This document shows positions 1,411-24,019 of a DNA stretch of 24,019 nt, one piece after another. The stretch is from Candidatus Hermodarchaeota archaeon (lineage in GTDB: Archaea; Asgardarchaeota; Hermodarchaeia; Hermodarchaeales; Hermodarchaeaceae): NCBI GenBank assembly GCA_016840595.1, contig JAEOSA010000005.1, positions 1 to 24,019 on the forward strand, in the 5' to 3' direction. Positions within the stretch are counted from its first letter, which is position 1; each line of letters starts with the position of its first letter. Below the pieces are notes generated by a model, which was not told where the DNA came from, did no database searches, and saw only the letters and a program-made list of their open reading frames with translations. Made by a program: the position numbers and the translations under genes.

Positions 1411-1519
1411 TCAGAAACCCCCTGGAGACCAGGAATATTGGGATTTGATTTGAAAGGGTGCGGCGAACATCCGTGTTTCAGTTCTTATAAATTGCTTGGT
1501 TCCTGAAAAGACGAAAACA
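1411..1519 (-). promoter_or_regulatory. Promoter and leader of the penicillin acylase gene
   Basis: On the minus strand a good archaeal TATA-like box (TTTATAAG) lies at 1484-1491. A start about 25 nt downstream would give a leader of roughly 50 nt. AGGGGG at 1418-1423 is 7 nt from the GTG start and supports that start. The T-rich stretch just after the DUF35 stop (1503-1519, minus strand) may end the mevalonate operon. Assigned by eye only. Confidence 0.55.
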
Positions 1520-2131: not shown

Positions 2132-2150
2132 ACAATTTCACCTTCTGCTC

Positions 2151-3332: not shown

Positions 3333-3338
3333 GTTTTT

Positions 3339-4388: not shown

Positions 4389-4597
4389 GCCTTGTTGTGC
4401 CTCCTGGTGTTCAAGGGTCGGAAGTTCTCGACTCCCGCTTCGTTGAAGCTTTTCAATGTTTTGCTTCTCAAGATTTGGAGTTCGATGATTCATTAAGACC
4501 CTTGCTTTGATAAGTTCTCGAACGAACCTCCTATGGAGCCTCTGATACCGGTTTTCTAACGGTTGATATTAATCCAAAACAGATACAATGGTTGAAA
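4389..4597 (-). promoter_or_regulatory. Upstream region of the mevalonate operon
   Basis: Gap between the flavodiiron stop and the preferred HMG-CoA synthase start. A weak TATA-like element (GATTAATATC, minus strand) lies at 4565-4574, which would place transcription start near 4540 and leave a leader of about 150 nt. The leader contains an in-frame ATG at 4493, a second AGGAGG farther upstream (about 4528-4533), and TCGAGAACTT twice. No clear terminator for the flavodiiron gene was seen, so readthrough into this operon is possible. Confidence 0.3.
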
Positions 4598-5788: not shown

Positions 5789-5918
5789 AGAATACCCTCC
5801 ATGAAACATGAGTATTGGTGCAGCTACTCGGATTAGGTTCTATAATTGTTTTTCATCTACAGGCAGAAGGCTTATCCGACCATTCCGCCTCATCACAGAT
5901 ACCTTTGGAGACTTCGCC
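5789..5918. promoter_or_regulatory. Divergent promoter region between flavodiiron and ACD alpha genes
   Basis: A single A/T-rich element, TATAATT at 5841-5847, reads TATAATT on plus and AATTATA on minus. It is the only convincing TATA candidate for either gene. Initiation about 25-27 nt away on each side would fall near 5870 for the plus gene and near 5817 for the minus gene, giving leaders of roughly 50 and 30 nt. Ribosome sites are GGAG at 5907-5910 (8 nt before the ATG at 5919) and GGAGGG at 5795-5800 on minus. By eye only. Confidence 0.4.
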
Positions 5919-7334: not shown

Positions 7335-10300
7335 CTAGTCATCGCTTGCAGACTGTTTCAACGAGAAGTAGGTTGCCTGCCGCTCTTCTTTCGATAAGTA
7401 CTTCAGATGGTCAACCAGCGCTTGTTTCTCTTCCTCATCTAGGCCTGGAATCTTATCCAACTCTCGTCGAATCTCAATCTCGACTGCAGTTGGAACTTTT
7501 ACTGGTTCCATATCTGGTGGTAAGACGGTCGGCGCTGTCCGATCCTCAGTCAACGCCTTATCCGGCTCAGGCGGTTCCTCCGGCTTCACCTCTTCCAACG
7601 GTACAACCGGCTCTTCAGTCGGCTCAACTTTTTCCGGAGGCTTGGGCTTCAGCTTGGGCTTCCGTTTAGGCTTTGGCTTGGGTTCAGGTTCAACCTTTGG
7701 TTTAGGCACCGGTTCTGGCGGAGGTGTCGGTTCGTCAGGTCGTTCCCGCTGCGTCAAAAAGTCCATTCGACGCATCCCCATCTGGCGCTTCAGGTCATCG
7801 AGGAACCAGATTCGATCCTTTCGAGGAATCTTGCGCATCTCATCCGCTAGTACTCCCTTCTCTTCTGCACCCAGACCTGGAATCTTGTCAAGCTCACTCA
7901 TAATGTCTTCTTCAGTTGCTGTGATCTCTTCAACTTCTTCAGTTGGAGGAATCATAGCAGGTGTCGTAGGTATACCAATTGTTGACATAGCACCATCCAT
8001 TTTATCTTCAAGAATGACACCTCTTTGATGGAATTTCTTCAAGTCCTTCCTACCCAACGTGTAACCTTCTTCCTCCTCGACCGTCTTAGCGAGTTTTCGC
8101 ATCCGACGAACTTCCCAAGGAATCGAGAAAACACGAGCCCACAGAATCCACCCAATCAGTACAAAAATCAGTGTAATGGCTGCACCAATACCTCCATAGA
8201 CACCGAGAAGAAGAGCTTGGGAAGGCGCAAATTGAACCACCCATCCTTCTAATGAAGAAGAATCATGTCTTACTGGAACAGTTTTTTCTGCAGTCACAGT
8301 TAGACCTATTCCAACGGTGGAGAATGAAAAAGCATCCCAGATTCCCTGAATCTCATACACGCCGTTACCTAATTGGACTAACTCGAATCCTTCTTGAACC
8401 AATTGTGATGGGATGGTAATGTTTGCACCATCAATTGGATCATTGTGCCAAGTGTCGTTAAAGTAAAGGCGAATTGAAACCGGTGCACCAATGAAGAATG
8501 TCGCTTCTGTGAGGGTTCCTGCTTCTTCTCCATTAATATGTGTGACTAAAAGTTCGGTTGGAATACTGATGACTTCGAATGATGTTTCATATATTCGTGG
8601 ATTGAAGTTGTCTTTACTGATTGTAACAAATAGACGATAATTACCCGTACCGAAGTAACTTGCATCCAACATCACTATATACAGTCCAGTAGTATTATCG
8701 TATTCAAATGCTTCATAGGGGACACCTGCGTCTCCAACGCGGACTAGACCACCTGCGGCTTCAATAGGCTTACCATCAATATCGGTATAATTGAGGTAAA
8801 TGTAAAGCCAGTCGCCAAGCGGTACTTGTGGTATACCCAAAGAACTGCTCCATTCGCCACGAACTGATACAAGATCCATTTCATCCACCGGGCTAGTTTC
8901 TCGAAGCTGAATCTGTATAGTCAAGGTAACACGAGGACAGGAGAACAAAGTGGCGCCCACACCAACAAGATCTAAGTGAAGCTCATATGGGAATCCTGCT
9001 GCTTGTTCTGCTGGGAAATCGTAGTAATACCAACCTGCTGTCCCGTTGGGGAGCATAAGTGCTTCTCCACCTGGGAGGTTAGGCCAGGACGCCCGGATGT
9101 CCAATCCAGGAATAGGATTGTTATCCGTTGTATCATTCAAGTAAACCAATATAGTAAAGGTTGAGAAATATTCGACACCAATGAAGTAGATGTTATCTTC
9201 AGGAACGATTGCTGCAGGTCTCAGACGGACATCAATTTGAAATGATAATGTCTGCGATTGAGTATTGGGGAAGGTTGCCTTTACACTAACTGTATAGATG
9301 ATAGTAAGGTGTGCAGGGGCTGTTGATGAGAAGTTGGCATAATAGATTCCTGGATGGAGAACACTTTCGGTTAGTACTCCATCTATAATTCCTGAGTGTG
9401 AGTGGCTGAATGTTACTGTCGCACCGGTGATTGGCGTGCCTGCGCCTGTTGAATAGTTGACAACGATATCATAAGTGTCTGGTGGGTTGAGGATAAATGA
9501 GGTCGGACCTTGATACGAACTTAGACTGCTAGGTCCGGCAGTAATGGTGTATGTGACAAATATAGTATCATTTGCGAAGTACCCCGTCTTAAACGCGGTG
9601 ATTTCGATTGGATATCGATCTTTATCATATAAAGAGCTGATTTCCCACCAATAAGTGCCATTATTCTCATTATTGAAAATCAGTGTGGGATGATCCCAAT
9701 ATCCTTGAACGTCCGCATCCGTTACAAAAGTCCCTGCTAGTAATCCGGCTCCAATTCGTACTGTAACACGGATTATTTGGTAGGGAACCTCACCATAGTA
9801 TCGTTCAAAGACACCTGGAGATTCTAGAGTAATTTCAAGTGGAACTTCGTATACGTATATTGGGACAGAAATGTTTTGCCAATAGTAATAGCTTTGGTTG
9901 GCAAATATCCATAGGATGACTTCTTGTCCAGCGGGTATCCCAGCTGTATTTAGGTCAATTTGCCACCAATCTTGATATGGTCCTGATAGAATTTGAGTGA
10001 TGGTTGGCGAAGGACCGCCGGTTACTTGAATATCTACTGTTGATGGAACATTAGGTACATGTTCATCGTTATCTGTATCATAGAATTTCACTAAGATTGT
10101 CATATCGTCGCCATAATATAGGTCACCTGGAGATTCATATTCAAGTAGCGTTTCAATGAATCGGACAGCCTTTGATACTGGTTCATTAAATTGTGATTCA
10201 AAGAAGGGAATAGAGGCCTCAGGATATGTTACATTTATGGTGAATAAATAACTGCCAATTCCATCGAGTTGTGTTGTATCAATTGATATGTCATAGAAAC

Positions 10301-13300
10301 CATTACCTAGCTCTGTGTACCACCAATCAACTCCATAAGTTCCAAAGAATGGAAGTGAAGGACAGAGCAGGGTTATGTCCAATAATGGCCAATCTGTTTC
10401 ATTAATACCGAATCCCTGTTCTGTCTGAAACCTGAAGATGATGCTTATAACATCATCATAGGGGAACGAAGCATCGGTGGGTTGGAGGATAAATTCTGTG
10501 CGTTGTCCAACTACGTAAGCTCGAAAATCAAATTCTTTAGTTGTATAATAAGGTGCATTTCCTGATTCCCAGGTTACTTCGAGTTTGAAGTCAAAGAAGA
10601 TGTTTACTCGTCCAAAGTAGTCTGCGTCAACCCTGAGTTGGAATGCATCGGTTCCACCTAATGCAACAATATACCATGCATCAGTAGGAATGAGGACAGG
10701 AATTGCTGGTGTGGTATTATAAAGATAGCATAAGACATGGTCACCGCCAAAGGAGGTGTTTGTAATCCAAGTTGTCCGAAGTTGATCTGAGTAGGTGAAG
10801 TTTACAAGGATTTCATCAAGATAGCCATATTCTCCTGCAGCGGTGTTTCTGATATCTGTAGGTCGTTCTGTGACAATAAGTGATACTGATTTGGTTTGAA
10901 CAGCATAAGGTGGTGGTGAGGTTGGCCAGGTAGTGTTTACTGTCCGAGCATATGTACCTGGGGCACCTATGAAGGTAGAATTGATGACGATGTCATAGAT
11001 GCCACTTCCGAATGAAATCACTGTATAGAATCCAACTTCACCGATGAGTGTGATGATGGCTGCTTGACCATCTATACCTTGACCGTTCAGACTGCTATCA
11101 GGGTCATTCACAGTATAGGTAATTCGGATGGTGAAGTTCTCTGCGTATGGTTGTGCATCGACAGGTTGTACAGTCATGGCTGTGAACACGGTTCGCACAC
11201 TGAAGATGAGTTCAGGAATCGTATCGGTTTCATATTGACTCCCTGCACCAGAGACGCCGATCATGATCTTATATTCGTCAATGGTTGCAAAAGCGGCTGC
11301 ATCAATGGTGATTTGGTAAGCTGATTGGGCACCTATCCATACTGATGTTACGTAGCCTGTAGGGTCGAAACCATCGAGACCGGTTACTGTAATGGTTCCG
11401 GTGGAGATGTCTTGTCCGTTGAGGGAGCTTTCACCATCTAGAACCTCGTAGGCTACATAGAGGACGGCGTCGTCACCGAAGGGGGTGAGGGGAACGCCCG
11501 TTGGATGTAACCAGGTAAATAGCGTTCGGACCGTGAGTGGAGCATCGTCTAATTGTCCATCAGTATAATCGGGTGGTCGGGTTATCGTGATGTCAAATTG
11601 ATAATCTCCGATTGAGGTAAGATAGGTGTCGAAGAATGTGATGTTGTATTTGCCATTCTCCCAATAGGCATAGTCGAAGTGAGTGAATCTTGTCAGTCCG
11701 GAAATTGTGATGGTAGCACCGGATATCGGGATTGTGATGGGAACACCCGTTATTGGGTTTGTATCGCTAACAAGGTAGGTGACGATGAGTTTGCCATCTT
11801 CGCCCCATGGGACAACCGGTGGACTTTGGTATGTGAAGCTGGTGGCTAATCGTCGAATAATAAGTTGAGCATAGGCAACTCCATCACCATATTCGACAGA
11901 GGTGTAGACGTCGAGTTGGAGGTTATAGGTCGCACGTGGCCAACTCGAGATATCGAGGGTGATTTCATAGATACCATTAGTTACATTGGTGACCCAGGTA
12001 GCCCAATTGGAGCTGTCGAGAGTGATGGGGGCAAATCCTCCAGTTATCTCGATGGAGCTAATGTGGTTTACTGGTAGGCCCGCTGGTGGAACAAGGTCGC
12101 TGTCGTTTACAAATAAAGTAATCCTGGTATCGTAGCCAACGGGTACTTGGGGGATTGATTGAACGTCTGCACTGATTGAGTGGACGCGGATGACGATGTT
12201 CACGGTTCCGTATCCATCTTGGAATCGGGGGTCATTCGAATAGACGGTGACATTAAGTCGGTGTGTACCACGACCCCAGCCAGTGGCGTCAATGGTGAAA
12301 TCGAGATTGTTTAATTCTGTCCAGGGGAGTGTTGGTGCTGAAGGACCCGAAATTTGGGTTACGCGGATTTGGGAAAGGTACGTGGTACTGATGGGGGATC
12401 CAGTGTCAAGGTCAGTCCAACTTACGCTGATTGGAATGGATCCGTCTTCTGGGACTGGTGGGGGTCCGGTGACCAATACGTAGACCCGATGGCCACGTAT
12501 GGTGATTTGAACATTCCCACTAGAATCGGCATAAATTCGTGGGCTTGTTAATGCCTCAACTGTGATGGTAAGTGTATATGGAGATCCAGCAATTGTTAAT
12601 GCTGATGTATCAATTGTGATGGTCCAGTCTGCGGGACTGATTTCTTGACCTGATACAGCTCCAGACCAAGTTATCCGGTAAACCTCGCCAATATCGATGG
12701 TTCCTCCAGCTGTTAGGTCATACCATTCAATTGTGAGGTCTGTGGTTTCTCCCCAGGGCGTCGCTTCAGGAGGTAGAACAGAGACCGCTGTTTGGTGAAC
12801 CGTGACTGTTATTCGGAGACTCCCCGAGCTGCCAAAGTACTCACCTGTATCAGGAGTAGTTGTTACGTACAAATTGTATGTACCTGGGAGCCACGAACTC
12901 GTATCAAGGGTGAAGGATAGAGAGGTTCGAGTTGCAACGAGTGAATTATTGGACGTCCATCGAACTTGAAGGAAATTGAGCTCAGCATCGGAAAGAGCGG
13001 TGCCGTTGATATCTAACCACTGTAGGGTGACGTCAGTAGTACTTTGATAGGGTGTAGGATCTGGTTGGTTGACAATTGTCTGAGTTTGATGGCCCACGAT
13101 TTGGAATCCGATGGATGCGGATCCATCACCGTAGGGACTTGCTGCATCTGCTTGGACGTTCAAGGTATAGCTTTGAATTGTTGAGATTCTCCCACTTGAT
13201 GCAAGTAGGGTGATAGTATAGGTGCCGTCAGCATGGTCGACTAGGGTATAGTCGGGACCTTGGGTTAATGGAGTAGCACCTAGTTGTAGAGTGAAACTCG

Positions 13301-15773
13301 CTCCGCTTATTGGATCACCATTATGTGCTGTGCTTTCGGGATCATTCGCAGAAAAGTCAAGGTTGATTACCACGTCTTCACCCCAGGGAATAGAACCTGG
13401 TGGGGTGTAGTCGAGGGTTGTGGAGATTTCACGAACGATGATTGTGAGGACAGTTGTGCGGGTTGTGTAGTAGTTTCGTGCTGCTTGGATTGTTAAGGAG
13501 TATGTTCCCACGCTCAGATGCTCTGAAAATGTGATATCATACCATCCGGCAGTTCCATTACTTGTTCCCGAGGGATTTGTGGAACCCCAGTCCGTGGTGA
13601 CGGTTGCTCCAGCAATCCCGGAGCTGAACTCGTCTTCGTAAAATACCTGAACAGTAAAGTCTTCATCATATGGTACGGTTAATCCTGGCGATTCAGGAGA
13701 TGTGAGGGTTGCATCGCTTCGAACTTGGATATCAACCGGAACTGTCGCCGACTCATAAAAAGGCGCATCTGCTTGTACAGATAACACATAGTCTCCTGGA
13801 CTGTCAAAATCGTTCGGAATTTCGCCTTGATAAAGACTCCCAACGGCTTGAAATGTTATGAAATGCGAACCCGGGTTGATGGTTCCGTTCACTTCAGCAT
13901 TTCCAATGAGAATACCTGATCGGTCCAAATCAGAATAGTTGACACGCACAAAGGTGACACCAGATCCATAGGGGACAAGGACTGGATCTACTTCTGCTGC
14001 TGCAGCCGCGTCGTGTACTATGTTAAATTCTTGGGAATAAAATCCTGCAGCGGTTTCATTGGGGGATTCGGAGGTGTCATCGTCGTAGCTGACACAGGCT
14101 GTGTACCGTCCGGCTGGATATGTGATTCCAGATGTTAATACGGTTGATATGATGCTAGTTGTTGCCGGAGCTGATGTATCCCACGCTATTCCACCATCAG
14201 GTTTGTATAATGTAAGGTTAACTTCCCCCGCGGTCTTGGAAAGGGTGATATCTACTTCAAAGGTATCTCCTATGCTGTAAGTGTTTAGTATTCCCGTAAC
14301 GGAGCTAACCCGGTTGGTGGATGAGAAAGTAAAGTTCCACCAGCCAAAACCAGTGACTGCCGATGGGGGGAGTCGCCAATGTGTGCTGTTACTAGCTGCA
14401 TTTACAGCGGATGTTTGATCTTGTAAGAAGGGGTCAGTGGCGCTATAGAGTGTCCAGGCTTCTGAAAGTTTTTGGAGTGTGAAGTTATAATTTTCAAAAT
14501 ACCTTGGGTAAAGAGGAGCATTGAACCACGCCGTCCAGTAGACATCTCCTCCATTTTTGACGGAAAATGCTGTTCCTTCGGGTCCGAATTGAGCTTCTGT
14601 GGTTCTACTGCGTTTTATGTAAAGGGTTAACGTGTAATTGAAGCTAACATCTCGACTAATTGCACTCGCAGTGGTCCATATCCCAGTAACATAGTCATCA
14701 GATGGATAAGGCCCTAAATTTAAGTCAGTTAGAGAAATTTTGCCTGAACCATAGGTGGGATTTTCCCATGAGGATGTGCTATTAAATCGCAACTGTAAAC
14801 CATTAGCGGTTGGACTGGGTTTTCCTCGGACGGTAAGTATGACGTTGTCAAAGTCCATGGCGAAATAGTTGTTGATAGCCCAATCAAAGTCCACGGTCAT
14901 GCCCAAGGTGACATTAATGGTATCAGAAGCCCACGATGCGAGTTCGTCAACAGAAAGTGAAAAGTTAATGTTATGAAATCCCCAACCACCCCTATAGGCG
15001 TTAAGGCAATATCGATGGCAGACAAAGATGCGTTCAGCTCCTCCAACTTCTACATACACGGCCATCTCGTCGTCGTCGTCCCGACCGTGGACGTTATCAT
15101 CGTAGAATTGGACATCAAAGGAGAGCCAAGCGGAGCTGGGGTCGATCCGGTTGAGGTCGATGGTTTGTGTCCACCCGATATATTCCGTATAACTGGGTCC
15201 AGATTGCCAATTATACCCACTCATGTTAGCCCACACGTTGATGCCATCCCCGGTTTCTCCCCACTTTGGTCCCCAATTCCATGAAAGACCGTCGATGCCT
15301 ACTCCGGACATTCCAACTTGACTTTCCACCCAGTAGTCCGGTGTTGTCGTTCCGGATTCGAAATTACCATTCCGAGTGTTACCTATAATGTGAGAAATGT
15401 TATCAAACAAGTTGTATACGGAGGCGGTGAGTTGGTAGCCAGTCCATCCTTGAGGAATCTCAATTTGTCCGGATGCACTTTCTCCGAAATCTAAATCAGT
15501 CACGCCTAACGTGGCAGTTTGACCATGTGAGTACTCTTGGACAGTGAGTACTTGTCCAAGTCCTTGGTAAAGATACTCGGAACCATCCCAACTTGGTCCC
15601 TCCGGCAGAGGAGGCATTGAGGACGAAAGAGGAGTTTCTACTGCAGAGATACTTCCATCCTTAGTGAATTCTTGACCCAATGGAGTCAAGTTCGTAAAGG
15701 GCGTAATCAAGATAAGACTGGATAACAAAAACAAAGTCAGGATAGTTAAGGGAACAAAATTTCGTCGCTTCAT
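7335..15773 (-). CDS. Giant Ig-like-repeat surface protein 1 (type I membrane protein with duplicated cytoplasmic module)
   Basis: 2812 aa from the ATG at 15773; the frame stays open 31 codons further upstream, but MKRRNFVPLTILTLFLL is a clear signal peptide start, with GGGGT 7 nt before it. After the signal, residues about 134-315 look like a carbohydrate-binding-type jelly roll (NGNFESG, many Trp/Gly, Cys252 and Cys256). Then come roughly 20 Ig-like beta-sandwich units of about 105-120 aa, each with a phrase like PWGEDVVI near its start and VR or a similar turn at its end. There are many NxS/T sequons and very few Cys. One transmembrane helix spans about 2520-2545. The tail (about 267 aa, cytoplasmic by its basic flank) holds two 44-aa helical modules around a Pro-rich linker. 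No enzymatic motif was seen. Likely adhesin, receptor or surface-layer component; function unknown. Tandem paralogue of the upstream gene. Confidence 0.9.
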   Translation of the reverse strand: MKRRNFVPLTILTLFLLSSLILITPFTNLTPLGQEFTKDGSISAVETPLSSSMPPLPEGPSWDGSEYLYQGLGQVLTVQEYSHGQTATLGVTDLDFGESASGQIEIPQGWTGYQLTASVYNLFDNISHIIGNTRNGNFESGTTTPDYWVESQVGMSGVGIDGLSWNWGPKWGETGDGINVWANMSGYNWQSGPSYTEYIGWTQTIDLNRIDPSSAWLSFDVQFYDDNVHGRDDDDEMAVYVEVGGAERIFVCHRYCLNAYRGGWGFHNINFSLSVDELASWASDTINVTLGMTVDFDWAINNYFAMDFDNVILTVRGKPSPTANGLQLRFNSTSSWENPTYGSGKISLTDLNLGPYPSDDYVTGIWTTASAISRDVSFNYTLTLYIKRSRTTEAQFGPEGTAFSVKNGGDVYWTAWFNAPLYPRYFENYNFTLQKLSEAWTLYSATDPFLQDQTSAVNAASNSTHWRLPPSAVTGFGWWNFTFSSTNRVSSVTGILNTYSIGDTFEVDITLSKTAGEVNLTLYKPDGGIAWDTSAPATTSIISTVLTSGITYPAGRYTACVSYDDDTSESPNETAAGFYSQEFNIVHDAAAAAEVDPVLVPYGSGVTFVRVNYSDLDRSGILIGNAEVNGTINPGSHFITFQAVGSLYQGEIPNDFDSPGDYVLSVQADAPFYESATVPVDIQVRSDATLTSPESPGLTVPYDEDFTVQVFYEDEFSSGIAGATVTTDWGSTNPSGTSNGTAGWYDITFSEHLSVGTYSLTIQAARNYYTTRTTVLTIIVREISTTLDYTPPGSIPWGEDVVINLDFSANDPESTAHNGDPISGASFTLQLGATPLTQGPDYTLVDHADGTYTITLLASSGRISTIQSYTLNVQADAASPYGDGSASIGFQIVGHQTQTIVNQPDPTPYQSTTDVTLQWLDINGTALSDAELNFLQVRWTSNNSLVATRTSLSFTLDTSSWLPGTYNLYVTTTPDTGEYFGSSGSLRITVTVHQTAVSVLPPEATPWGETTDLTIEWYDLTAGGTIDIGEVYRITWSGAVSGQEISPADWTITIDTSALTIAGSPYTLTITVEALTSPRIYADSSGNVQITIRGHRVYVLVTGPPPVPEDGSIPISVSWTDLDTGSPISTTYLSQIRVTQISGPSAPTLPWTELNNLDFTIDATGWGRGTHRLNVTVYSNDPRFQDGYGTVNIVIRVHSISADVQSIPQVPVGYDTRITLFVNDSDLVPPAGLPVNHISSIEITGGFAPITLDSSNWATWVTNVTNGIYEITLDISSWPRATYNLQLDVYTSVEYGDGVAYAQLIIRRLATSFTYQSPPVVPWGEDGKLIVTYLVSDTNPITGVPITIPISGATITISGLTRFTHFDYAYWENGKYNITFFDTYLTSIGDYQFDITITRPPDYTDGQLDDAPLTVRTLFTWLHPTGVPLTPFGDDAVLYVAYEVLDGESSLNGQDISTGTITVTGLDGFDPTGYVTSVWIGAQSAYQITIDAAAFATIDEYKIMIGVSGAGSQYETDTIPELIFSVRTVFTAMTVQPVDAQPYAENFTIRITYTVNDPDSSLNGQGIDGQAAIITLIGEVGFYTVISFGSGIYDIVINSTFIGAPGTYARTVNTTWPTSPPPYAVQTKSVSLIVTERPTDIRNTAAGEYGYLDEILVNFTYSDQLRTTWITNTSFGGDHVLCYLYNTTPAIPVLIPTDAWYIVALGGTDAFQLRVDADYFGRVNIFFDFKLEVTWESGNAPYYTTKEFDFRAYVVGQRTEFILQPTDASFPYDDVISIIFRFQTEQGFGINETDWPLLDITLLCPSLPFFGTYGVDWWYTELGNGFYDISIDTTQLDGIGSYLFTINVTYPEASIPFFESQFNEPVSKAVRFIETLLEYESPGDLYYGDDMTILVKFYDTDNDEHVPNVPSTVDIQVTGGPSPTITQILSGPYQDWWQIDLNTAGIPAGQEVILWIFANQSYYYWQNISVPIYVYEVPLEITLESPGVFERYYGEVPYQIIRVTVRIGAGLLAGTFVTDADVQGYWDHPTLIFNNENNGTYWWEISSLYDKDRYPIEITAFKTGYFANDTIFVTYTITAGPSSLSSYQGPTSFILNPPDTYDIVVNYSTGAGTPITGATVTFSHSHSGIIDGVLTESVLHPGIYYANFSSTAPAHLTIIYTVSVKATFPNTQSQTLSFQIDVRLRPAAIVPEDNIYFIGVEYFSTFTILVYLNDTTDNNPIPGLDIRASWPNLPGGEALMLPNGTAGWYYYDFPAEQAAGFPYELHLDLVGVGATLFSCPRVTLTIQIQLRETSPVDEMDLVSVRGEWSSSLGIPQVPLGDWLYIYLNYTDIDGKPIEAAGGLVRVGDAGVPYEAFEYDNTTGLYIVMLDASYFGTGNYRLFVTISKDNFNPRIYETSFEVISIPTELLVTHINGEEAGTLTEATFFIGAPVSIRLYFNDTWHNDPIDGANITIPSQLVQEGFELVQLGNGVYEIQGIWDAFSFSTVGIGLTVTAEKTVPVRHDSSSLEGWVVQFAPSQALLLGVYGGIGAAITLIFVLIGWILWARVFSIPWEVRRMRKLAKTVEEEEGYTLGRKDLKKFHQRGVILEDKMDGAMSTIGIPTTPAMIPPTEEVEEITATEEDIMSELDKIPGLGAEEKGVLADEMRKIPRKDRIWFLDDLKRQMGMRRMDFLTQRERPDEPTPPPEPVPKPKVEPEPKPKPKRKPKLKPKPPEKVEPTEEPVVPLEEVKPEEPPEPDKALTEDRTAPTVLPPDMEPVKVPTAVEIEIRRELDKIPGLDEEEKQALVDHLKYLSKEERQATYFSLKQSASDD
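7350..7481 (-). other. Cytoplasmic helical module, copy 2 of giant protein 1 (C-terminus)
   Basis: 44 residues: IRRELDKIPGL, then EEEKQALVDHLKYLSKEERQA, ending SLKQS. A gap-free internal duplicate of the module at 7782-7913. It occupies the extreme C-terminus, followed by only ASDD. Confidence 0.75.
7482..7781 (-). repeat. Proline/lysine-rich linker in the tail of giant protein 1
   Basis: About 100 codons between the two helical modules, beginning with QRERPDEPTPPPEP and rich in KPKPKPKRK-type runs. Low complexity and probably extended. It ends with a conserved TEDRTAP.VLPP segment that is also present in protein 2. Confidence 0.8.
7782..7913 (-). other. Cytoplasmic helical module, copy 1 of giant protein 1
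   Basis: 44 residues. Core ELDKIPGL, then EEK, an acidic/basic helix, and a second helix ending DDLKRQ. It aligns without gaps to the module at 7350-7481 (shared ELDKIPGL..EEK..L.D, then R and LK near the end). It begins about 90 residues after the membrane helix. Probably a two-helix hairpin; the family is not recognised. Confidence 0.75.
13086..13421 (-). repeat. Single copy of the amplified 113-aa unit in giant protein 1
   Basis: The unit starts TTLDYTPPGSIPWGEDVVI and contains DYTLVDHADGTYTITLL and SSGRISTIQSYTL. It aligns almost without gaps to the 113-aa repeats of protein 2 (for example TKITYTPPLPTPWGQDVVI, DYTLVDNGGGQYTLTLL, SSGKLSSITTYTL). It is the best visible match in protein 1 to that repeat, and suggests the array in protein 2 arose from one ancestral domain. 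Confidence 0.75.
14830..15372 (-). other. Jelly-roll-like N-terminal domain of giant protein 1
   Basis: Residues about 134-315. The opening NGNFESG...PDYW resembles carbohydrate-binding modules of the jelly-roll type (general CBM4/9-like pattern). It is followed by Trp-rich strands (LSWNWGPKW, GYNWQSG), an acidic loop (GRDDDDE), a CHRYC pair and a closing strand near DFDNVILTVRG. Assignment is by sequence texture only; a specific CBM family is not claimed. This domain has no counterpart in the visible part of protein 2, whose N-terminus is outside the window. Confidence 0.45.
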
Positions 15774-16013
15774 ACTTTTTACCCCGGGGTGGTTAGCAGA
15801 GGGTTGGAGCGCAGAGCAGTTCCCAGGCAGCAATGCGGTGTGAAGATCGGATGATACGTGCATCATTGACCTGTCGGTGTGTCTCCAATCGCCACCAAAC
15901 CGTTACTTTACGACCGATGAGGCGATTTAAAAACATTTACCTGTACCTTTGTCTAAACAAAAAAGAAAAAATTGAGTGCTTACGAACATCAGAAGCCACG
16001 AGCACTCGGATGC
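15774..16013 (-). promoter_or_regulatory. Intergenic region between the two giant genes: terminator, then promoter
   Basis: 240 nt with no gene. Reading in the direction of transcription, the first part holds a hairpin and T tract after giant gene 2. Then comes a TATA-like box TTTTTAAA at 15926-15933, which would start transcription near 15900 with a leader of about 125 nt to the ATG at 15773. The in-frame open stretch back to 15866 is probably untranslated, since it would bury the signal peptide. The arrangement suggests the two giants are separately transcribed. Confidence 0.5.
15955..16007 (-). terminator. Hairpin and T-tract terminator of giant gene 2
   Basis: The arms GAGTGC (16002-16007 on minus) and GCACTC (15974-15979) can pair around a 22-nt loop. 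They are followed at once by a T-rich run with two blocks of six T (about 15955-15973). T tracts alone suffice as archaeal terminators. It lies just after the stop codon at 16014-16016. Confidence 0.6.
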
Positions 16014-19000
16014 TTACGAGTCCATGTCAGCATTTTGCTGCAGCGAATTGTACGTCGCTTGGCGTTCGGCTTTGCTCAAGTATTTCAGATGATCTACTAA
16101 GGCTGCTTTCTCTGCTTCACTAAGGTTAGGAATGCGGTCGAGTTCACGGCGTATCTCCGCAATCACTGCATCAGGTACAGCTGGCGCGTCTTGAAGTTCC
16201 GGAGGTAACACGCTAGGTGCAGTCCGGTCTTCTTTTAGTGCTTTGGGCTCTGGTGGTTCTTTGGTTGGCACCTCTTCCAGCGGAGGCACATCAGGCTTTA
16301 CAGGAGGTGTTTCAGTTGGAGTTGGTTTTGGAGGAGCTTCCTTTGGAATGGGTTTGGGGGGCGCCTCCTTCGGTGCTGGTGTTGGTGCTGGTTCTAGTGG
16401 TGGTGTGATGGGTTGCTCGCGTTGAGTGAGGAAGTCCATCCGACGTTGCCCCATCTGTCGTTTCAAGTCATCGAGGAACCAGATACGGTCTTTGCGCGGA
16501 ATCTTTCGCATCTCGTTCGCAAGGACGGTTTTTTCTTCTGGTCCTAATCCTGGGATTTTATCCAGTTCGGTCATAATGTCTTCTTCTTTGGCCGAGATTT
16601 CTTCAACTTCTTCTGTTCTTGGAATCATAGCCGGTGTTGCCGCTACACCAATCGTACCCATTGCCGTGCTTACCTTGGATTCCATGGTGACTTCTCGGTC
16701 ATGGAAGCGTTTCAGGTCCTTCCGACCGAGTGTATACCCTTCTTCCTTGTCAATGGTCTTGGCGAGTTTCCGCAACCGGCGGACTTCCCATGGTATCGAA
16801 TAGACCCGCGCCCAGAGAATCCATCCAATCAGTGCGATGACCACTATTACGGCAGTGATAGATCCATAGAAAATCAGTTGTTCCGTAAGTTCTGTGAATT
16901 CGATACTGACAAAGCTTTCAATTTCGTTGATTGCATTGTAATTGAACTTCTCGGCTATGAAGGTCAATGTAGTTGGACTGGCACTATTCGCACTGATTGT
17001 TATGTTATAATACCCTAGATTGGTCGGGTCAGGCTCGATTGTGATAGTCGCTCCTATCGAGGCTGCTTCAAGTTCATAATAAACATCAGCACCAGTTACA
17101 GGTGCGTTGTGATATGTGTCATTAAGATAAAGTACAAAGGAGTAAGTTGTTCCGATATAAAGCGTGTTAGGAATGGACTCAACTAAACTGAGTTCCATCG
17201 GAATAGAATCGACTTCAAGGCTCCTGCTAATCATTTTGTTTTCATAAAAATCTGAACGAAATTCAATTATGAGTTCACGGGTGGCTGATGTGTTAAATTG
17301 GAAATACACGGTCCAATAACCAGTATCAGAATCAAAGGTAAAATCTACGGCGGAAATAAAGCTGATGGTTCTCGATAAAACTTCATCTTCAAGGAGACTG
17401 TTATAACCCATATCCCTATAATTATAGGTTAGAACAAGTGTATCACCAATGGGAATGAACCAACTGGGATTCGAATAGGGAACAGAGACATTATAGTCAA
17501 CCCCATCAATTGTGACGATTGTATATGCACTTATGAGATCTAATTCCGTTCCTGCTTTGCTGATTGTTAGAGGAACAGAAGTTGACGAGTCACTGAATTT
17601 CGAAAATATCGGATGATAGATACTAATTATCCGGGCTTGACTACTTGGTGTTTCATTGGCAGGGAACGAGCAAGTATACCATCCATCAGTCCCAGTTGGG
17701 TCGAAATAATAGTGATTCCCTTGCCAGATAAGATATAGCGTGTGACCGTCGATTGGATTCCACGGATTCAATCCTCGTGTGTCATTGAGAAAAACGTCGA
17801 TTGTGACATTCTGCTTGTAATTTGCTGAATAAGCTGGTTGTTCAACGATAATCTCGCAGGGCTTATACCTCATTGTAATTGTGAAGGTGATTTGTTGAGG
17901 AATTGTATTTGTGGCGCCTGCTGTGACGGTGATGGTTTGAGGTTGCATTCGCCAGGTGGATGTATTGAATTCACAATAGTAGGTTCCGTCTGCTATGAAG
18001 GTGAAATCTTCCATCACATAAGAAGTCGAAGCATTCAGTGCACTAATATCAGCATAATTCAAATAGTTCCAGAAGGTTCCATTTTCATGAACTGACCAAA
18101 ATGTCACATAAAGAGTGATGTTGTCATCTATGTAGACTTCTATTGCGGTGCTATTTCCTGGTGGTGTGTCAAGTCTTGTGTTTACTGCTTGGATACTTAC
18201 TGTGAAGATGAAGAATTCAGTTTCGTAGTCGGTCATGTTCGTTTGGATGATGAGTTGGGTTCCAGTTGCATTCGCTGATCCTGTATCAATTATTGGACTA
18301 ATAGTGTAGAAACCAGGAGTTCCTGTATAGGTCATTAATGCCCAGTCTGAAGTATACCATTTGTAGATGATTTCGGTGCCGTTGGCTGGGGTCATTGGAG
18401 TGCCCGTTAATAAATCTTCAAGGTAAACGGTGACAGGAATGAGTTCTCCCCAGTAGACAATTATATTCGAGCCTATTGGGTCGATTTTTACCAGTGATAG
18501 AGGCGCTTTTTGGATAGTAATGTCGACATCTCTTATTTGCTCTTCATAATTTGTTTTAGTAGCTGTGAGGTAAAAGGAGAAGGCTCCTGCCGCAAGACCA
18601 GTAGTGTCAATCATAATCACCCATGTTCCGTCGATTTGAGTATAATTGAAAGTTAATCCAACATCAATAGACCAAATTACATCGGTGATATTTTCGAAGT
18701 CATGGTCTCGATCTTGATATAGCGCCTCGATAACAAGCCATTGAGAGTAGTATAGTGTTGAGGGTTGCGACCAATCTAGTGTCGTACGAATCTCACGGAC
18801 ACGTGCTGAAACGAAGGCTTCAGCAGATGCATAGTATGGGAAGTATTGTGGGTCAAATCCTGTTGGCCAAGTGAGGGTGATGCGGAATGAATAAGTTCCT
18901 ACATCTAGATTCATATCGCCACGGATAATTAGCGTGTAGTTACCATCTGTTCCTGGCCAGGAGGAGGCTAGAACGTACCAATATGAATCATTCCATCCTG

Positions 19001-22000
19001 CGATATCGTCACATTCAACGAGAATGCCAACATATGTACTGCCATTCGTTACTTTTCCTCCTCCAGTTGTCTCGTAATGTAAATTGATGATGATATCATC
19101 ACCAGTTGGCTCCGTTTGGATGGTTTCGGAGTAGAGAATGGTTTCTGTACCCACTGTACGGACGGAGAATGCTTTGGTTGCTATTGTATAGAACGGTGCG
19201 TTTCCAGCTACCCAGCTGGCTTCAATTTTCAAGTTGAAGATTACGTTTACGGCTCCCAGTTCACTAGCACTAATTAGGACACGATAGTAGAGGGTTGGTT
19301 CGCCCCAACCTGTACCAAACGTTATGTCTTCAAGATAATATGTAGCCGAAATCTCGCTATCGTTGGAAGCGTGAAGGATTCGGATTCGTACCCAAGAACC
19401 AGTCGTTGAGTTATCAATGCCCCAATCATCAAGGACATCAGTATAGTTAAGGTAGACAATGACATTATCAGCATAGTTGGTGTCAGGTGGGTTGGTATTG
19501 ATAATGCGGGTTTCTCGATATTCTGATGTCAGCCAGACACCCACCCATTGTTCTTCGTAGGTTGGTGGATCATCTATCCATCCAAGGGTGATGTTAATCC
19601 AGTAACTTCCTGGTGCTGGAGTTTGATCAGAGTTTATGATGATGAGATAGTGACCGTTTCCTTGGTCAAATAATGAATAGCTTGGATACGCCCAAGTATC
19701 ATTAGTGACGATAATAATATCATCGGAGCCAATGATGCCGTCTCCATCTTGGGAACTTGCATCATCGCGAACTCGATAGATTACTGTGATATAGAAATCT
19801 TCACCGTAGGGAGCGGCGTCAACTGGTTCTTTTTCAATCTCAGTGTAGACGGTGCGGATATTGAAAGACATTGGGGGGCTAGCGATTCTTGCAGATCGAT
19901 ACGGCTCCGTGGGATGATATGCATCAACTTCGATTTGATAACTTCCAATACTTAGTGCCTTTGTAATTGTGATGCGGTAGTATCCGGGGAATGGGGTAAC
20001 GGAATAATCACCTGGAAGAAGAACCAAACCTCCGATACCCGTGACCGTAATGGTGGCTCCGGAGATAAATGCCCCGTTGTTGGAACTTTGTCCATCTAGA
20101 ATGAAGTATTGTACATCAACAATGACATCATCACCATATGGCGTTGTTGGAACTCGTGAGTACGCTAGTGTTGTAAAGAGAGCACGCACGGTAATTGGAA
20201 CATTGGTGAGTGCTCCATTGTTATATTGGGCTGGGCTTGATATGGAAATATCAAAGTAATAGGTCTGATTAGTCGGGAGTTGTGCTGCAAAAATGGTGAT
20301 GGTATAGGTGCTATCTCCATTATCTAGGAAAGAAAAGTCCACACCCAAAGTTAAAGTTGCTATACTTATCGTGGCCCCTGTGATTGGATCTCCATTTTGG
20401 GATGCAATAGTGTCTGAAACAGTGTAGTTCACTTCGAGAATTCCATCTTCTCCCCAAGCCACAACTGGTGGGCTTTGATAAGTGAAGCTGGTGGCAAGGG
20501 CACGGATAGTAGCTGCTGTGTAAACAGTGTCATTCTCATAGCTTGATGAAGTGTAAACGTAAACATCTAGCGCATGAGTTCCTAGCACCCACCCAGTGGT
20601 ATCAAGTGTGATAGTGAAGATTCCATCATTTGGTAAGCCATCTTCTACCCATTGCGTCCAGTTTCCACTGTTAATGTACAGGGTTGTTGGACCCACAATC
20701 CGGATGGCAATGAGATCTGCGTCAGGAAGTGCTGTTCCCAAATCGTCATCATCGACTCGAAGCACCATGGACCCATTGTTTTCCCAAGGGATGTTGGAGA
20801 TTGGATTGATGTTGCTAGCAATATAGTGGTTGCGGATTCGAAAACCGATTGTTTGGTCAGCATCTTGATGATAGGCGTCTGGGGCGACCACATGCAATGC
20901 AAGGGAATAAATTTTCACTGTTGAGATTTCTCCGCTTGAATAAAGGAGGGTTAATGTGTATTGGCCTCCGCCGTTATCTACGAGAGAATAATCACCTGGA
21001 TCGAGTGCACCACCATCGAGTAAAGTGCCTGCGATACTCGTTACTCCAGTAATGCCATTCCCATCTTCTCCACTGGCTGAATCATCCACAATGTAATAGA
21101 AAACTATAACGACATCTAAGCCCCAGGCTGTACTCCCGACTGCTTCGTATGTGATTGCGGTACGAATGGCTCGAATGTCAAATCCAATGTTGACACTTGC
21201 ATCATCATGTTGGGTATCTGGAGAATTCACATAAAGATCCAACGAATAAGTCGCAATACTGCTAATTCTACCACTGGAGAAGAGGATTGTAAGGGTATAT
21301 TGCCCTCCACCATTATCGACTAGGGTGTAGTCTCCAGGGTTTAACGGGGCACCATCGAGCTGGGAACCCGCAATTGAGGTGACGCCTGTAATTCCGGTGC
21401 CATGTTGAGAGCTGGCAGGATCATTCACTTTGTAATTGATGACAATGACTACATCTGTACCTCGGGGAACAGGGGGCGTGGGGGTATAACTTACAAGGGT
21501 GACAATAGACCGAACGTCGAATTGCCCAGATCGGTCTGCGTAGTCATAATTAGCAGTTGGAGCATTCACATAAAGGTAGAGAGTGTATGATTGAATGTTG
21601 TTGATTCTCCCGCTGGAATACAGAATTGTGAGAGTATATTGACCAGCTCCTTCATCAACTAATGTGTAGTCAGTACCAACTAATCCAACGGCATCTAGTG
21701 TTGACCCTGAAATGTCGGTTACTCCTGTGATACCATTCCCGTGTTGGCTGCTTGCTAAATCACTAACCCGATAATAGAACGTAATAACAACATCGTCACC
21801 CCAGGGTGTTGGTGAGGGTGGATCAATCGTTACCTGGGTTGTTAAGGCACGAATATCGAAGGTAATGGTTTGGTCAGCAGCATCATATTGGACGGCAGGG
21901 GCGTCAAAATGTAATTCCAGCGTATAGGTCGTAATACTGGATAACTTCCCACTGGAATAAAGGAGAGTGAGGGTGTATTGGCCACCACCGTTATCGACTA

Positions 22001-24019
22001 AAGTGTAGTCACCTGGTACTAGGGGTACAGCATCTAAAGTGGATCCACTAATACTCGTTACTCCGGTAATCCCATTGCCGTGTTGGGCGCTGGATGTGTC
22101 TTCAACCAAATAGAATACAGTGATAACCACATCTTGCCCCCAAGGCGTCGGAAGGGGCGGTGTATAGGTAATCTTTGTACCCAACAAGCGAACAGTAAAT
22201 GATGTTGTTCGGTCTGCAGCATTGTACTCAGCGCTAGGTGCAACGACATGCAGAGCCAGTGAGTAGGACTGAATACTCGAAATAACTCCGCTGCTAAATA
22301 GGATAGTGAGGGTGTATTGACCGCCACCGTTATCGACCAGAGTATATTCACCAGGGTTCAGGGCTACTGCGTCAAGAGTGGAGCCGGTAATTGAAGTGAC
22401 CCCGGTGATGCCAGTGCCATCATTGGAGCTGTCTAAGTCGTTAATGACATAGTAGAAAGTGATTACGACGTCTTCACCCCAGGGGGTCTGAGGAATCGGG
22501 TCAAAGGAAATCGAAGTCCGCAACGTACGGACCCTGAAACTGATTGTTTGTGATGCATTCTCATGTTGGGCATCAGGGGAGACGACAAAGACAATTAGAG
22601 AATACAACTTGATGATAGATAGCTTTCCACTACTAAACAGAATAGTTAGGGTATATTGCCCTCCGCCATTATCCACGAGTGTATAATCACCGGAATCGAG
22701 AGCAATAGCATCGAGGGTCGATCCTGTGATACTGGTGACACCAGGGATACCATTTCCATCTTGGGAGCTGGTGGGATCATTGACCGTGTAGTAGAAGATG
22801 ATTTCGACATCTTCACCATACGGTGTGGGACTGACCGCATCATATGTGACGAAGGTTCGAATGGTCCGAATTTCAAAGGTGATGGTTTGGTCAGCAGCAT
22901 CATGTTGGCTATCAGGAGCGACGACATGCAAGTCAAGAGAATATGTTTTGATACTGTTGATAATTCCACTAGTATAAAGCAGTGTGAGGGTGTATTGGCC
23001 GCCGCCATTATCAACAAGTGTATATTCTGTGACGAGGAGTGGTGTTCCATCCAATTGGGACCCAGCAATTGACGTTACACCATCAATCCCGTTTCCATGT
23101 TGACTACTGGACGGGTCATTGACCTTATAGTAGAAGATGATGACGACATCCTCACTCCAAGGTACGGGAATAACCGGGTCATACGTAATTTCAGTTGCGA
23201 GAGTTCTCACATCAAAAGTGATTGTTTGGCTCGCATCATCATGTTGAGTATCCGGGGAATTCACAAAAAGGTACAAGCTGTAGGTTTGGACGTTATTGAT
23301 CTTTCCACTGGAGTAGAGGATGGTGAGTGTATATTGTCCTCCTCCATTATCTACGAGAGTATAGTCGCCAGGATTAAGGAGGACAGCATCTAGGGTGGAT
23401 CCGGTAATATCTGTGACGCCTGTGATACCGTTGCCATGTTGGATACTAGCTAGGTCACTGACCCGATAATAAAAAGTGATTATAACATCGTCACTCCAAG
23501 GAGTTTGTGATGGTGGGTCAATCGTCACTTGGGTTGTTAGAGTGCGAATATCGAAGGTGATGGTTTGGTCGGCATCAGCGTATTGGACAGCTGGGGCATC
23601 GAAATGTAATTCCAATGTATAGGTCTTGATGTTGGAAAGTTTTCCGCTGGAATAAAGAAGAGTGAGGGTGTATTGCCCGCCTCCGTTATCGACTAGGGTA
23701 AAGTCACCTCCGATTAAGGGTACGCCATCAAGTGTTGAATCGGTGATGCTGGTGACACCAGGGATACCATTCCCGTGTTGAGCGCTGGATGTATCTTCGA
23801 CTAAATAGAACACGATGATGACTACATCTTGCTCCCATGGTGTTGGAAGGGGAGGTGTGTATGTAATCTTCGTGCCTAGTTGCCTGACAGTAAAAGTGGT
23901 GGTTCGATCTGCTGAGTTATATTCAGCACTCGGTGTATCGACATGTAAGGCAAGCAGGTAGGGCTTGATACTCGAAATTATTCCACTACTGTACAAAATT
24001 GTGAGGGTGTATTGGCCGC
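16014..24019 (-). CDS. Giant Ig-like-repeat surface protein 2 (paralogue of protein 1), 5' end cut by window edge
   Basis: The frame is open from the right edge to TAA at 16014-16016, giving 2667 visible residues; start codon and signal peptide are outside. In order: at least nine 113-aa tandem repeats (20823-23873) plus a partial one at the edge; about twelve more diverged Ig-like domains of about 100-120 aa, with sequons and few Cys; one transmembrane helix (LIFYGSITAVIVVIALIGWILW, about 16803-16880); a basic juxtamembrane stretch (SIPWEVRR, then EEGYTLGRKDLK); and a cytoplasmic tail with two 44-aa modules around a Pro-rich linker. From the domain starting TSFTYQSPPVV (20492) to the C-terminus it is collinear with protein 1 (from 11843). 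No catalytic motif was seen. Probably a long cell-surface stalk, adhesin or receptor; function unknown. Confidence 0.9.
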   Translation of the reverse strand, partial: GQYTLTILYSSGIISSIKPYLLALHVDTPSAEYNSADRTTTFTVRQLGTKITYTPPLPTPWEQDVVIIVFYLVEDTSSAQHGNGIPGVTSITDSTLDGVPLIGGDFTLVDNGGGQYTLTLLYSSGKLSNIKTYTLELHFDAPAVQYADADQTITFDIRTLTTQVTIDPPSQTPWSDDVIITFYYRVSDLASIQHGNGITGVTDITGSTLDAVLLNPGDYTLVDNGGGQYTLTILYSSGKINNVQTYSLYLFVNSPDTQHDDASQTITFDVRTLATEITYDPVIPVPWSEDVVIIFYYKVNDPSSSQHGNGIDGVTSIAGSQLDGTPLLVTEYTLVDNGGGQYTLTLLYTSGIINSIKTYSLDLHVVAPDSQHDAADQTITFEIRTIRTFVTYDAVSPTPYGEDVEIIFYYTVNDPTSSQDGNGIPGVTSITGSTLDAIALDSGDYTLVDNGGGQYTLTILFSSGKLSIIKLYSLIVFVVSPDAQHENASQTISFRVRTLRTSISFDPIPQTPWGEDVVITFYYVINDLDSSNDGTGITGVTSITGSTLDAVALNPGEYTLVDNGGGQYTLTILFSSGVISSIQSYSLALHVVAPSAEYNAADRTTSFTVRLLGTKITYTPPLPTPWGQDVVITVFYLVEDTSSAQHGNGITGVTSISGSTLDAVPLVPGDYTLVDNGGGQYTLTLLYSSGKLSSITTYTLELHFDAPAVQYDAADQTITFDIRALTTQVTIDPPSPTPWGDDVVITFYYRVSDLASSQHGNGITGVTDISGSTLDAVGLVGTDYTLVDEGAGQYTLTILYSSGRINNIQSYTLYLYVNAPTANYDYADRSGQFDVRSIVTLVSYTPTPPVPRGTDVVIVINYKVNDPASSQHGTGITGVTSIAGSQLDGAPLNPGDYTLVDNGGGQYTLTILFSSGRISSIATYSLDLYVNSPDTQHDDASVNIGFDIRAIRTAITYEAVGSTAWGLDVVIVFYYIVDDSASGEDGNGITGVTSIAGTLLDGGALDPGDYSLVDNGGGQYTLTLLYSSGEISTVKIYSLALHVVAPDAYHQDADQTIGFRIRNHYIASNINPISNIPWENNGSMVLRVDDDDLGTALPDADLIAIRIVGPTTLYINSGNWTQWVEDGLPNDGIFTITLDTTGWVLGTHALDVYVYTSSSYENDTVYTAATIRALATSFTYQSPPVVAWGEDGILEVNYTVSDTIASQNGDPITGATISIATLTLGVDFSFLDNGDSTYTITIFAAQLPTNQTYYFDISISSPAQYNNGALTNVPITVRALFTTLAYSRVPTTPYGDDVIVDVQYFILDGQSSNNGAFISGATITVTGIGGLVLLPGDYSVTPFPGYYRITITKALSIGSYQIEVDAYHPTEPYRSARIASPPMSFNIRTVYTEIEKEPVDAAPYGEDFYITVIYRVRDDASSQDGDGIIGSDDIIIVTNDTWAYPSYSLFDQGNGHYLIIINSDQTPAPGSYWINITLGWIDDPPTYEEQWVGVWLTSEYRETRIINTNPPDTNYADNVIVYLNYTDVLDDWGIDNSTTGSWVRIRILHASNDSEISATYYLEDITFGTGWGEPTLYYRVLISASELGAVNVIFNLKIEASWVAGNAPFYTIATKAFSVRTVGTETILYSETIQTEPTGDDIIINLHYETTGGGKVTNGSTYVGILVECDDIAGWNDSYWYVLASSWPGTDGNYTLIIRGDMNLDVGTYSFRITLTWPTGFDPQYFPYYASAEAFVSARVREIRTTLDWSQPSTLYYSQWLVIEALYQDRDHDFENITDVIWSIDVGLTFNYTQIDGTWVIMIDTTGLAAGAFSFYLTATKTNYEEQIRDVDITIQKAPLSLVKIDPIGSNIIVYWGELIPVTVYLEDLLTGTPMTPANGTEIIYKWYTSDWALMTYTGTPGFYTISPIIDTGSANATGTQLIIQTNMTDYETEFFIFTVSIQAVNTRLDTPPGNSTAIEVYIDDNITLYVTFWSVHENGTFWNYLNYADISALNASTSYVMEDFTFIADGTYYCEFNTSTWRMQPQTITVTAGATNTIPQQITFTITMRYKPCEIIVEQPAYSANYKQNVTIDVFLNDTRGLNPWNPIDGHTLYLIWQGNHYYFDPTGTDGWYTCSFPANETPSSQARIISIYHPIFSKFSDSSTSVPLTISKAGTELDLISAYTIVTIDGVDYNVSVPYSNPSWFIPIGDTLVLTYNYRDMGYNSLLEDEVLSRTISFISAVDFTFDSDTGYWTVYFQFNTSATRELIIEFRSDFYENKMISRSLEVDSIPMELSLVESIPNTLYIGTTYSFVLYLNDTYHNAPVTGADVYYELEAASIGATITIEPDPTNLGYYNITISANSASPTTLTFIAEKFNYNAINEIESFVSIEFTELTEQLIFYGSITAVIVVIALIGWILWARVYSIPWEVRRLRKLAKTIDKEEGYTLGRKDLKRFHDREVTMESKVSTAMGTIGVAATPAMIPRTEEVEEISAKEEDIMTELDKIPGLGPEEKTVLANEMRKIPRKDRIWFLDDLKRQMGQRRMDFLTQREQPITPPLEPAPTPAPKEAPPKPIPKEAPPKPTPTETPPVKPDVPPLEEVPTKEPPEPKALKEDRTAPSVLPPELQDAPAVPDAVIAEIRRELDRIPNLSEAEKAALVDHLKYLSKAERQATYNSLQQNADMDS
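16032..16163 (-). other. Cytoplasmic helical module, copy 2 of giant protein 2 (C-terminus)
   Basis: 44 residues: IRRELDRIPNL, then EAEKAALVDHLKYLSKAERQA, ending SLQQN. Matches copy 2 of protein 1 closely, and copy 1 of its own protein more distantly. Ends at the C-terminus (ADMDS). Confidence 0.75.
16164..16454 (-). repeat. Proline-rich linker in the tail of giant protein 2
   Basis: 97 codons with repeated KEAPPKP-like phrases. Almost the same length as the linker of protein 1 (100 codons), but with quite different composition: Ala/Thr/Pro rather than Lys/Pro. A short conserved KEDRTAPSVLPPE segment precedes the second module. Confidence 0.8.
16455..16586 (-). other. Cytoplasmic helical module, copy 1 of giant protein 2
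   Basis: 44 residues with core TELDKIPGL, EEKTVLANEMRKIPRKDR and DDLKRQ. Only a handful of residues differ from copy 1 of protein 1, and it sits in the same place relative to the membrane helix. Confidence 0.75.
20823..24019 (-). repeat. Tandem array of 113-aa (339-nt) Ig-like repeats
   Basis: Nine consecutive units of exactly 113 codons begin (minus strand) at 23873, 23534, 23195, 22856, 22517, 22178, 21839, 21500 and 21161; a further partial unit runs off the right edge. Every unit has TLxDxxxL near 48-60, a (D/E)(Y/F)(T/S)LVD.G.GQYTLT core at about 57-71, and SSG or TSG before the last strands. Each ends in a strand rich in I/V and R. No insertion or deletion is seen across nine units. 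Nucleotide differences are spread over the units, so the array is not very recent. Confidence 0.93.

Follow-up and report, generated by a model that had tools for sequence, protein, structure and literature searches.

Two giant surface proteins (giants A and B), encoded in the 24,019-nucleotide stretch of contig JAEOSA010000005.1 that we analysed (the window; assembly GCA_016840595.1, a Candidatus Hermodarchaeota archaeon), carry in their inner tails four segments of 44 residues which we regard, with somewhat more confidence than doubt, as copies of an undescribed three-helix cytosolic docking domain of giant Asgard surface proteins, probably of the single-pass kind. Sequence comparisons establish that the copies are homologous and arranged in tandem, that they keep a conserved place behind the membrane span and that they are spread over much of the phylum. 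The copies and the linkers between them are:

7782..7913, minus strand: module copy 1 of giant A (44 residues; AlphaFold2 helices at tail residues 78-86, 93-105 and 108-123)
7482..7781, minus strand: inter-copy linker of giant A, rich in Pro, Lys and Glu, with a conserved RTAPTVLPP motif
7350..7481, minus strand: module copy 2 of giant A (44 residues; AlphaFold2 helices at tail residues 219-230, 237-247 and 252-268)
16455..16586, minus strand: module copy 1 of giant B (44 residues)
16164..16454, minus strand: inter-copy linker of giant B, rich in Pro
16032..16163, minus strand: module copy 2 of giant B (44 residues)

Translated from the minus strand, all four segments yield 44 stop-free residues, and they align without gaps, as the original prediction (a reading of the bare sequence by a model) had it, with 12 of the 44 columns invariant, including those of E-L-D, I-P, L, E-K and L. 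Between the two giants, copy 1 shows 91% identity. The proposed duplication within each tail was confirmed by a comparison of the N-terminal with the C-terminal part of the tail: the best ungapped match scored 99 in giant A (shuffle maximum 51) and 60 in giant B (shuffle maximum 53), and none of 2000 shuffles per giant reached the observed score. An unrooted tree was built from 59 copies; it rests on only 55 columns, draws a warning of shortness from the tool and leaves many forks open. In it the Hermod-type first copies form one group (15 rows, 97/100) and the second copies another (15 rows, 88/97), each spanning several paralogous giants. This fits a tandem duplication predating the paralogues, and the prediction that the duplication is older than the gene pair appears to be correct.

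The position of the modules relative to the membrane follows from the remaining parts of the two frames, of which the hydrophobic spans were located by a hydropathy scan:

7335..15866, minus strand: frame of giant A, 2843 residues
15771-15773: internal ATG, the probable start of giant A (MKRRNF..., then a hydrophobic signal-peptide-like stretch)
8115..8219, minus strand: hydrophobic span of giant A, residues 2550-2584
7914..8144, minus strand: basic juxtamembrane part of giant A (LWARVFSIPWEVRRMRKLAK...), its initial residues overlapping the span
16014..24017, minus strand: frame of giant B, 2667 residues, its 5' end beyond the window edge
16791..16889, minus strand: hydrophobic span of giant B, residues 2377-2409
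16587..16817, minus strand: basic juxtamembrane part of giant B, its initial residues overlapping the span

Both tails have the same order, namely hydrophobic span, basic juxtamembrane part, module copy 1, Pro-rich linker and copy 2, and the scan places 67 residues in giant A and 68 in giant B between the end of the span and the start of copy 1. The modules follow the span and are predicted to lie on the cytosolic side, in agreement with the original prediction. One additional, weaker hydrophobic stretch was seen in the ectodomain of giant B (20016-20072). With one main membrane span and a modelled folded cytosolic domain, both giants probably have the layout of a single-pass receptor. The frame of giant A is probably too long at its 5' end, because a relative (locus L001) starts with MKRRNF. 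The visible start of giant B consists of near-identical repeats, with ten GQYTL sites spaced exactly 113 residues apart, and Pfam recognizes the Collagen-flanked surface repeat in this protein (PF19079, E 1.4e-7, 32 bits against a cut-off of 27).

The tail of giant B recovered 22 proteins, giants of 1633-4498 residues, for which the taxa named are Hodarchaeota, Hermodarchaeota or Promethearchaeota, and a scan of genomes for relatives gave five loci, all from Candidatus Hermodarchaeota or Hermodarchaeum metagenome-assembled genomes (MAGs). Giant A is 85% identical to one relative (P0018), which has the same tail sequence as locus L005 of Candidatus Hermodarchaeum yapensis; by its sequence, the host of the window is close to this organism. 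At E<=1, a first profile of 12 modules matched 13, 2, 10 and 4 times in four Hermodarchaeal genomes, although the weakest of these matches are due to chance; at E<=1e-3 it had matches in 43 of the 227 genomes of the phylum of Ca. Hermodarchaeum yapensis. A broad profile (A7) of 28 modules, built partly from sequences recovered by the first-profile searches, found matches in 93 of the 227 at E<=1e-4, that is all of the earlier 43 and 50 new ones. The module, conserved in both giants as predicted, is by no means limited to them. In one genome (G001) there are 11 module matches on 4 contigs among the matches listed for the broad profile, and a single contig (C29) has two separate module-bearing frames.

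Profile-profile comparisons link the groups to one another: copy 1 of the Hermod type matches copy 2 at 96.6%, comparisons with the other single-copy Asgard group give 97.1% and 97.1%, and those with the Lokiarchaeal type 91.6%, 98.2% and 96.5%. These figures are helped by selection, because the Lokiarchaeal and other groups were chosen with the first profile. One could hold that the likeness outside Hermodarchaeota is chance or helical composition, reflecting convergent amphipathic helices, particularly as first-profile matches beyond Hermod-type genomes are mostly weak and the broad profile was partly built from those very matches. We give this hardly any credence, given that the reversed broad alignment matches in none of the 227 genomes, that none of 100 column shuffles for each of six pairs attains the observed score (they reach at most 17.8%), that 50 genomes found with the broad profile had no first-profile match, and that the Hermod-type and Thorarchaeal juxtamembrane parts match independently (97.3%). 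A Lokiarchaeal protein deprived of its module matches at no more than 0.1%. The reversed-profile control and the constant position of the module answer the concern about selection in part.

Classification of the 68 distinct module-bearing frames in the fetched loci from beyond the window showed a hydrophobic span upstream in 62, while five run off the contig and one is soluble. Two or more copies exceed the threshold in 25 of these frames and one copy in 43, though a diverged second copy can escape it. The original prediction had asked whether the module also occurs in soluble proteins, and it does so in this one frame of the 68, from a single genome (L073:2049-3983, genome G070). The soluble protein belongs to an unknown family and combines an N-terminal module with C-terminal tetratricopeptide (TPR) repeats. 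Its relatives align only with the part beyond the module, starting at residue 66-69; the seven long ones are spread over 6 of the 7 other Hermod-type genomes and G070 itself, which has a second such protein, and those of the other Hermod-type genomes show no sign of the module. In this TPR protein the module is an extra domain.

Several layouts can be distinguished among the tails. The Hermod type and its paralogues have two or three copies, the first of which lies 64-67 residues after the span among the frames listed. The Thor type comprises 88 relatives, whose named taxa are Thorarchaeota except for two Promethearchaeota and one Sifarchaeia; the Thorarchaeal giants are mostly of about 2580 residues, and the linkers of this type are short and have no proline runs. 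Their first module matches Hermod copy 1 at 84.6% and Hermod copy 2 at 87.0%, and their divergent second unit is nearest to Hermod copy 2 (84.0%). The Lokiarchaeal type has the order hydrophobic N-terminus, ectodomain, span, predicted longin domain, module and TPR-like part, the flanking domain being assigned to the longin fold on its predicted structure; no longin was seen in Hermod and Thor tails. At least 144 relatives of this type were recovered at E<=0.001, with scoring of the 7992 candidates sharing most words. The best 120 of the 144 are labelled Lokiarchaeota, Lokiarchaeum GC14_75 and Promethearchaeota, with further submitter labels of Heimdall-, Hod-, Hermod-, Thor- and Odinarchaeota; given this mixture we treat MAG labels as noisy and name the type after its labelled Lokiarchaeota records. 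In other lineages one or two copies are found, C-terminal in giants.

AlphaFold2 predicts three helices in each copy of the giant A tail, rather than the helical hairpin originally proposed, and the copies came out helical instead of disordered: the block-mean predicted local distance difference test score (pLDDT) is 79-84 within copy 1, with 66 at its beginning, and 82-90 in copy 2. The linker, for its part, is predicted to be mostly disordered, as the earlier idea of a flexible linker implied, 68 of the 86 tail residues 129-214 lying in stretches with pLDDT below 50. The module also remains unrecognised, for none of 18 tails passes any curated cut-off of Pfam-A and NCBIfam at E<=0.05, the best scores below the cut-offs being 19.7 bits for Pfam BET (cut-off 24.5) and 20.9 bits for NCBIfam (cut-off 601). 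A fold search of the PDB with the module returned no significant match and middling ones at most. Two candidate families were considered. The GA module (PF01468) scores 16.0 bits with P0004 and 12.9 bits with P0001 against a Pfam cut-off of 24 and leaves P0002 and P0003 unmatched, and bundles of the GA, protein A and Z-domain kind reach at best a Foldseek E of 2.3. GA modules and protein A / Z-domain bundles are extracellular binding modules, whereas the Asgard module stays below the Pfam cut-off and is on the predicted cytosolic side. The helix-hairpin-helix motif, suggested by the likeness of IPGLG, is defined by conserved hairpin glycines (PGxG), whereas in 28 modules the central leucine is followed by G, S, D, E, T, Q or K; one frame matched by the first profile at only E 0.5 we take to be a helix-hairpin-helix region. 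Separately, the second-copy region of L023:857-1609 has a sub-threshold match to GAAD, the GTPase-associated adaptor domain (18.8 against 23.6 bits), which is probably a chance helix match, though a noteworthy one because a predicted longin adjoins the module in the Lokiarchaeal type.

Among the parts scored in 21 Hermod giants the modules are the most conserved, with mean pairwise identities of 0.87 for module 1 and 0.71 for module 2, followed by 0.66 for the juxtamembrane part, 0.50 for the linker, 0.42 for the span and 0.39 for the ectodomain, of which the best 50-residue window attains 0.53. In the Thor proteins (the first 45 of 76 of 2500-2650 residues) the modules stand at 0.80 and 0.75, and the ectodomain and juxtamembrane part both at 0.53. 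For an orthologue pair of giant A the ratio of nonsynonymous to synonymous rates (dN/dS) is 0.054 and 0.043 in the modules and 0.109 in the ectodomain, and module 1 of a giant B pair has 14 synonymous and no nonsynonymous changes, so that purifying selection on the modules is supported by the sequences. In copy 1, helix 3 is conserved at polar positions and not at its core alone (KDRxWFLxDL). These values also bear on the notion that the Pro-rich linker is the working part, recruiting profilin, and hence actin, to the membrane. Hermod-type giants do possess such linkers, and Thorarchaeal and Heimdallarchaeal profilins are described as binding polyproline in an excerpt of PMC8410842, but the same excerpt has Loki and Odin profilins not binding it; moreover, the linker is variable in length and less conserved than either module, and the Thor-type linkers lack proline runs. 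We therefore consider a profilin-recruiting linker very improbable.

We infer that the module is a docking unit, which would bind a partner in the cytosol, because several giants in one genome share it, because it is kept while the ectodomains diverge, because helix 3 of copy 1 retains polar as well as core positions and because the module moved into a soluble TPR protein. Within one cell, several surface giants with diverged ectodomains would present the same binding units inward, and one or a few cytosolic partners could tether or cluster the giants and relay their state. The strongest rival to docking remains self-association: copies from neighbouring giants would pair at the inner face and gather the surface proteins into patches with no need of a cytosolic partner. 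Tandem copies, a tail common to several giants per genome and a small bundle whose third helix is conserved in copy 1 are all as this rival would have them, and it dispenses with a partner; yet the module is single, as far as the threshold allows a diverged second copy to be recognized, in 43 of the 68 frames, and occurs also in one soluble TPR protein and next to a longin-like domain, and we hold homotypic pairing to be possible though unlikely. Alternatively, the tail might serve biogenesis or stability, as a folded plug that fixes the topology, shields the C-terminus or aids the folding of a giant secreted chain, with no signalling. Outside the Lokiarchaeal type, nearly every frame that ends naturally indeed has no more than about 30 residues between its last module and the C-terminus, save Thor-type frames whose second copy escaped the scan. 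A plug of this kind is nonetheless improbable in view of the retention of polar along with core positions in helix 3 of copy 1, the near-constant distance from the membrane, and the 141-168 residues that follow the module in Lokiarchaeal-type proteins with a natural end (359 in L122).

If docking is the correct reading, the Lokiarchaeal type offers a hint of the pathway, as there the module would be joined to a predicted longin domain in one polypeptide. An excerpt of PMC10933270 describes longin/roadblock dimers as small-GTPase platforms. The predicted fusion makes membrane-cortex or GTPase signalling our best guess, and the longin-like domain may be taken as a pointer to a small-GTPase tie. 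One might go further and envisage a common Asgard outside-in linkage, in which diverse giant ectodomains share one movable tail module plugged into the cytosolic cortex and, in the Lokiarchaeal type, wired directly to a longin-type small-GTPase platform; this wider scheme is tentative and we think it rather doubtful.

Several observations weigh against docking or against its extension to small GTPases. The contrast between ectodomain and module is biased upward, because both conservation sets were found by their tails. In the giant B pair module 2 is 82% identical and the ectodomain 88%, synonymous change being saturated, and in both orthologue pairs the juxtamembrane part is less identical than the ectodomain (0.75 against 0.84 and 0.83 against 0.88). 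The ectodomains of the other module giants are diverged repeats related to those of the window giants (BLAST segments of about 20-30% identity, E to 1e-34); they are diverged relatives rather than unrelated folds, and the shared tail could therefore be plain inheritance. The Thor second copy is weak, with 2.9% to Thor copy 1 and 5.6% to Hermod copy 1. Small bundles of three helices are a common fold, and 134 of the 227 genomes of the phylum have no broad-profile match at E<=1e-4. As to the longin, it neighbours the module in the Lokiarchaeal type only, and by prediction, with no Foldseek row reaching E 0.001; neither longin nor roadblock is among the 24 Pfam families listed for 16 members of this type at E<=1, and a PDB sequence search at E<=1 names no longin and one dynein light chain (0.31), which falls outside the longin part.

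Some further frames and neighbouring genes may be recorded here. Two proteins of 513 and 531 residues (L106 and L112) have five predicted spans and two C-terminal module matches, and their ending in modules means that the module is not limited to giants. Four large proteins of genome G082 (L113, L114, L115 and L116) end in a short half-match, roughly LKELAxLSxEEReEFLxxLE, which is perhaps a truncated or diverged module. In L063, L065 and L069 about 200 further residues, helical-looking by eye (ELSxIxRTRxTT...), lie between span and module. Adjoining the giants, positions 1-7331 of the window encode a CoA-ligase-like gene, a flavodiiron-type protein, a penicillin-amidase homologue and an HMG-CoA-synthase-like / thiolase / OB-fold trio; the gene order of these metabolic neighbours is found again in L003 and L005.

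Compared with known systems, the giants resemble the S-layer or giant surface proteins of bacteria and archaea in their long repeated ectodomain, as seen in the 113-residue spacing of giant B, but differ in that their cytosolic tail is conserved and folded, a feature that would seem superfluous in a plain surface-layer anchor. Integrin- or cadherin-like proteins are single-pass adhesion receptors with docking tails, and the module giants are like them in combining a large beta-rich ectodomain, one main span, a flexible linker and a conserved cytosolic tail; the comparison is one of working principle, as no sequence relation turned up, none having been specifically looked for. The receptor or adhesin role advanced in the original prediction is plausible; the bivalent binding that it proposed, and a link of the tail to actin or ESCRT components, would be conjectural. 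From the Asgard longin and roadblock proteins in the excerpt of PMC10933270 (structure 8yqg) the module differs in not itself being a longin. Ca. Lokiarchaeum ossiferum, according to an excerpt of PMC9834061, has no highly ordered S-layer but complex surface proteins and an actin cytoskeleton with filaments. The module, which spans 45-50 residues and is conserved across much of the phylum, could serve as bait in a search for the coupling partner and, at the sequence level, to recognise a class of surface proteins; because it adjoins a predicted longin in the Lokiarchaeal type, a tie to small GTPases can be tested directly. The module may be how Asgard archaea, the relatives of eukaryotes, connect the cell surface to the cell interior, and the outside-in linkage, if true, would amount to a functional forerunner of the tails of eukaryotic receptors and adhesion proteins, or to a parallel of them.
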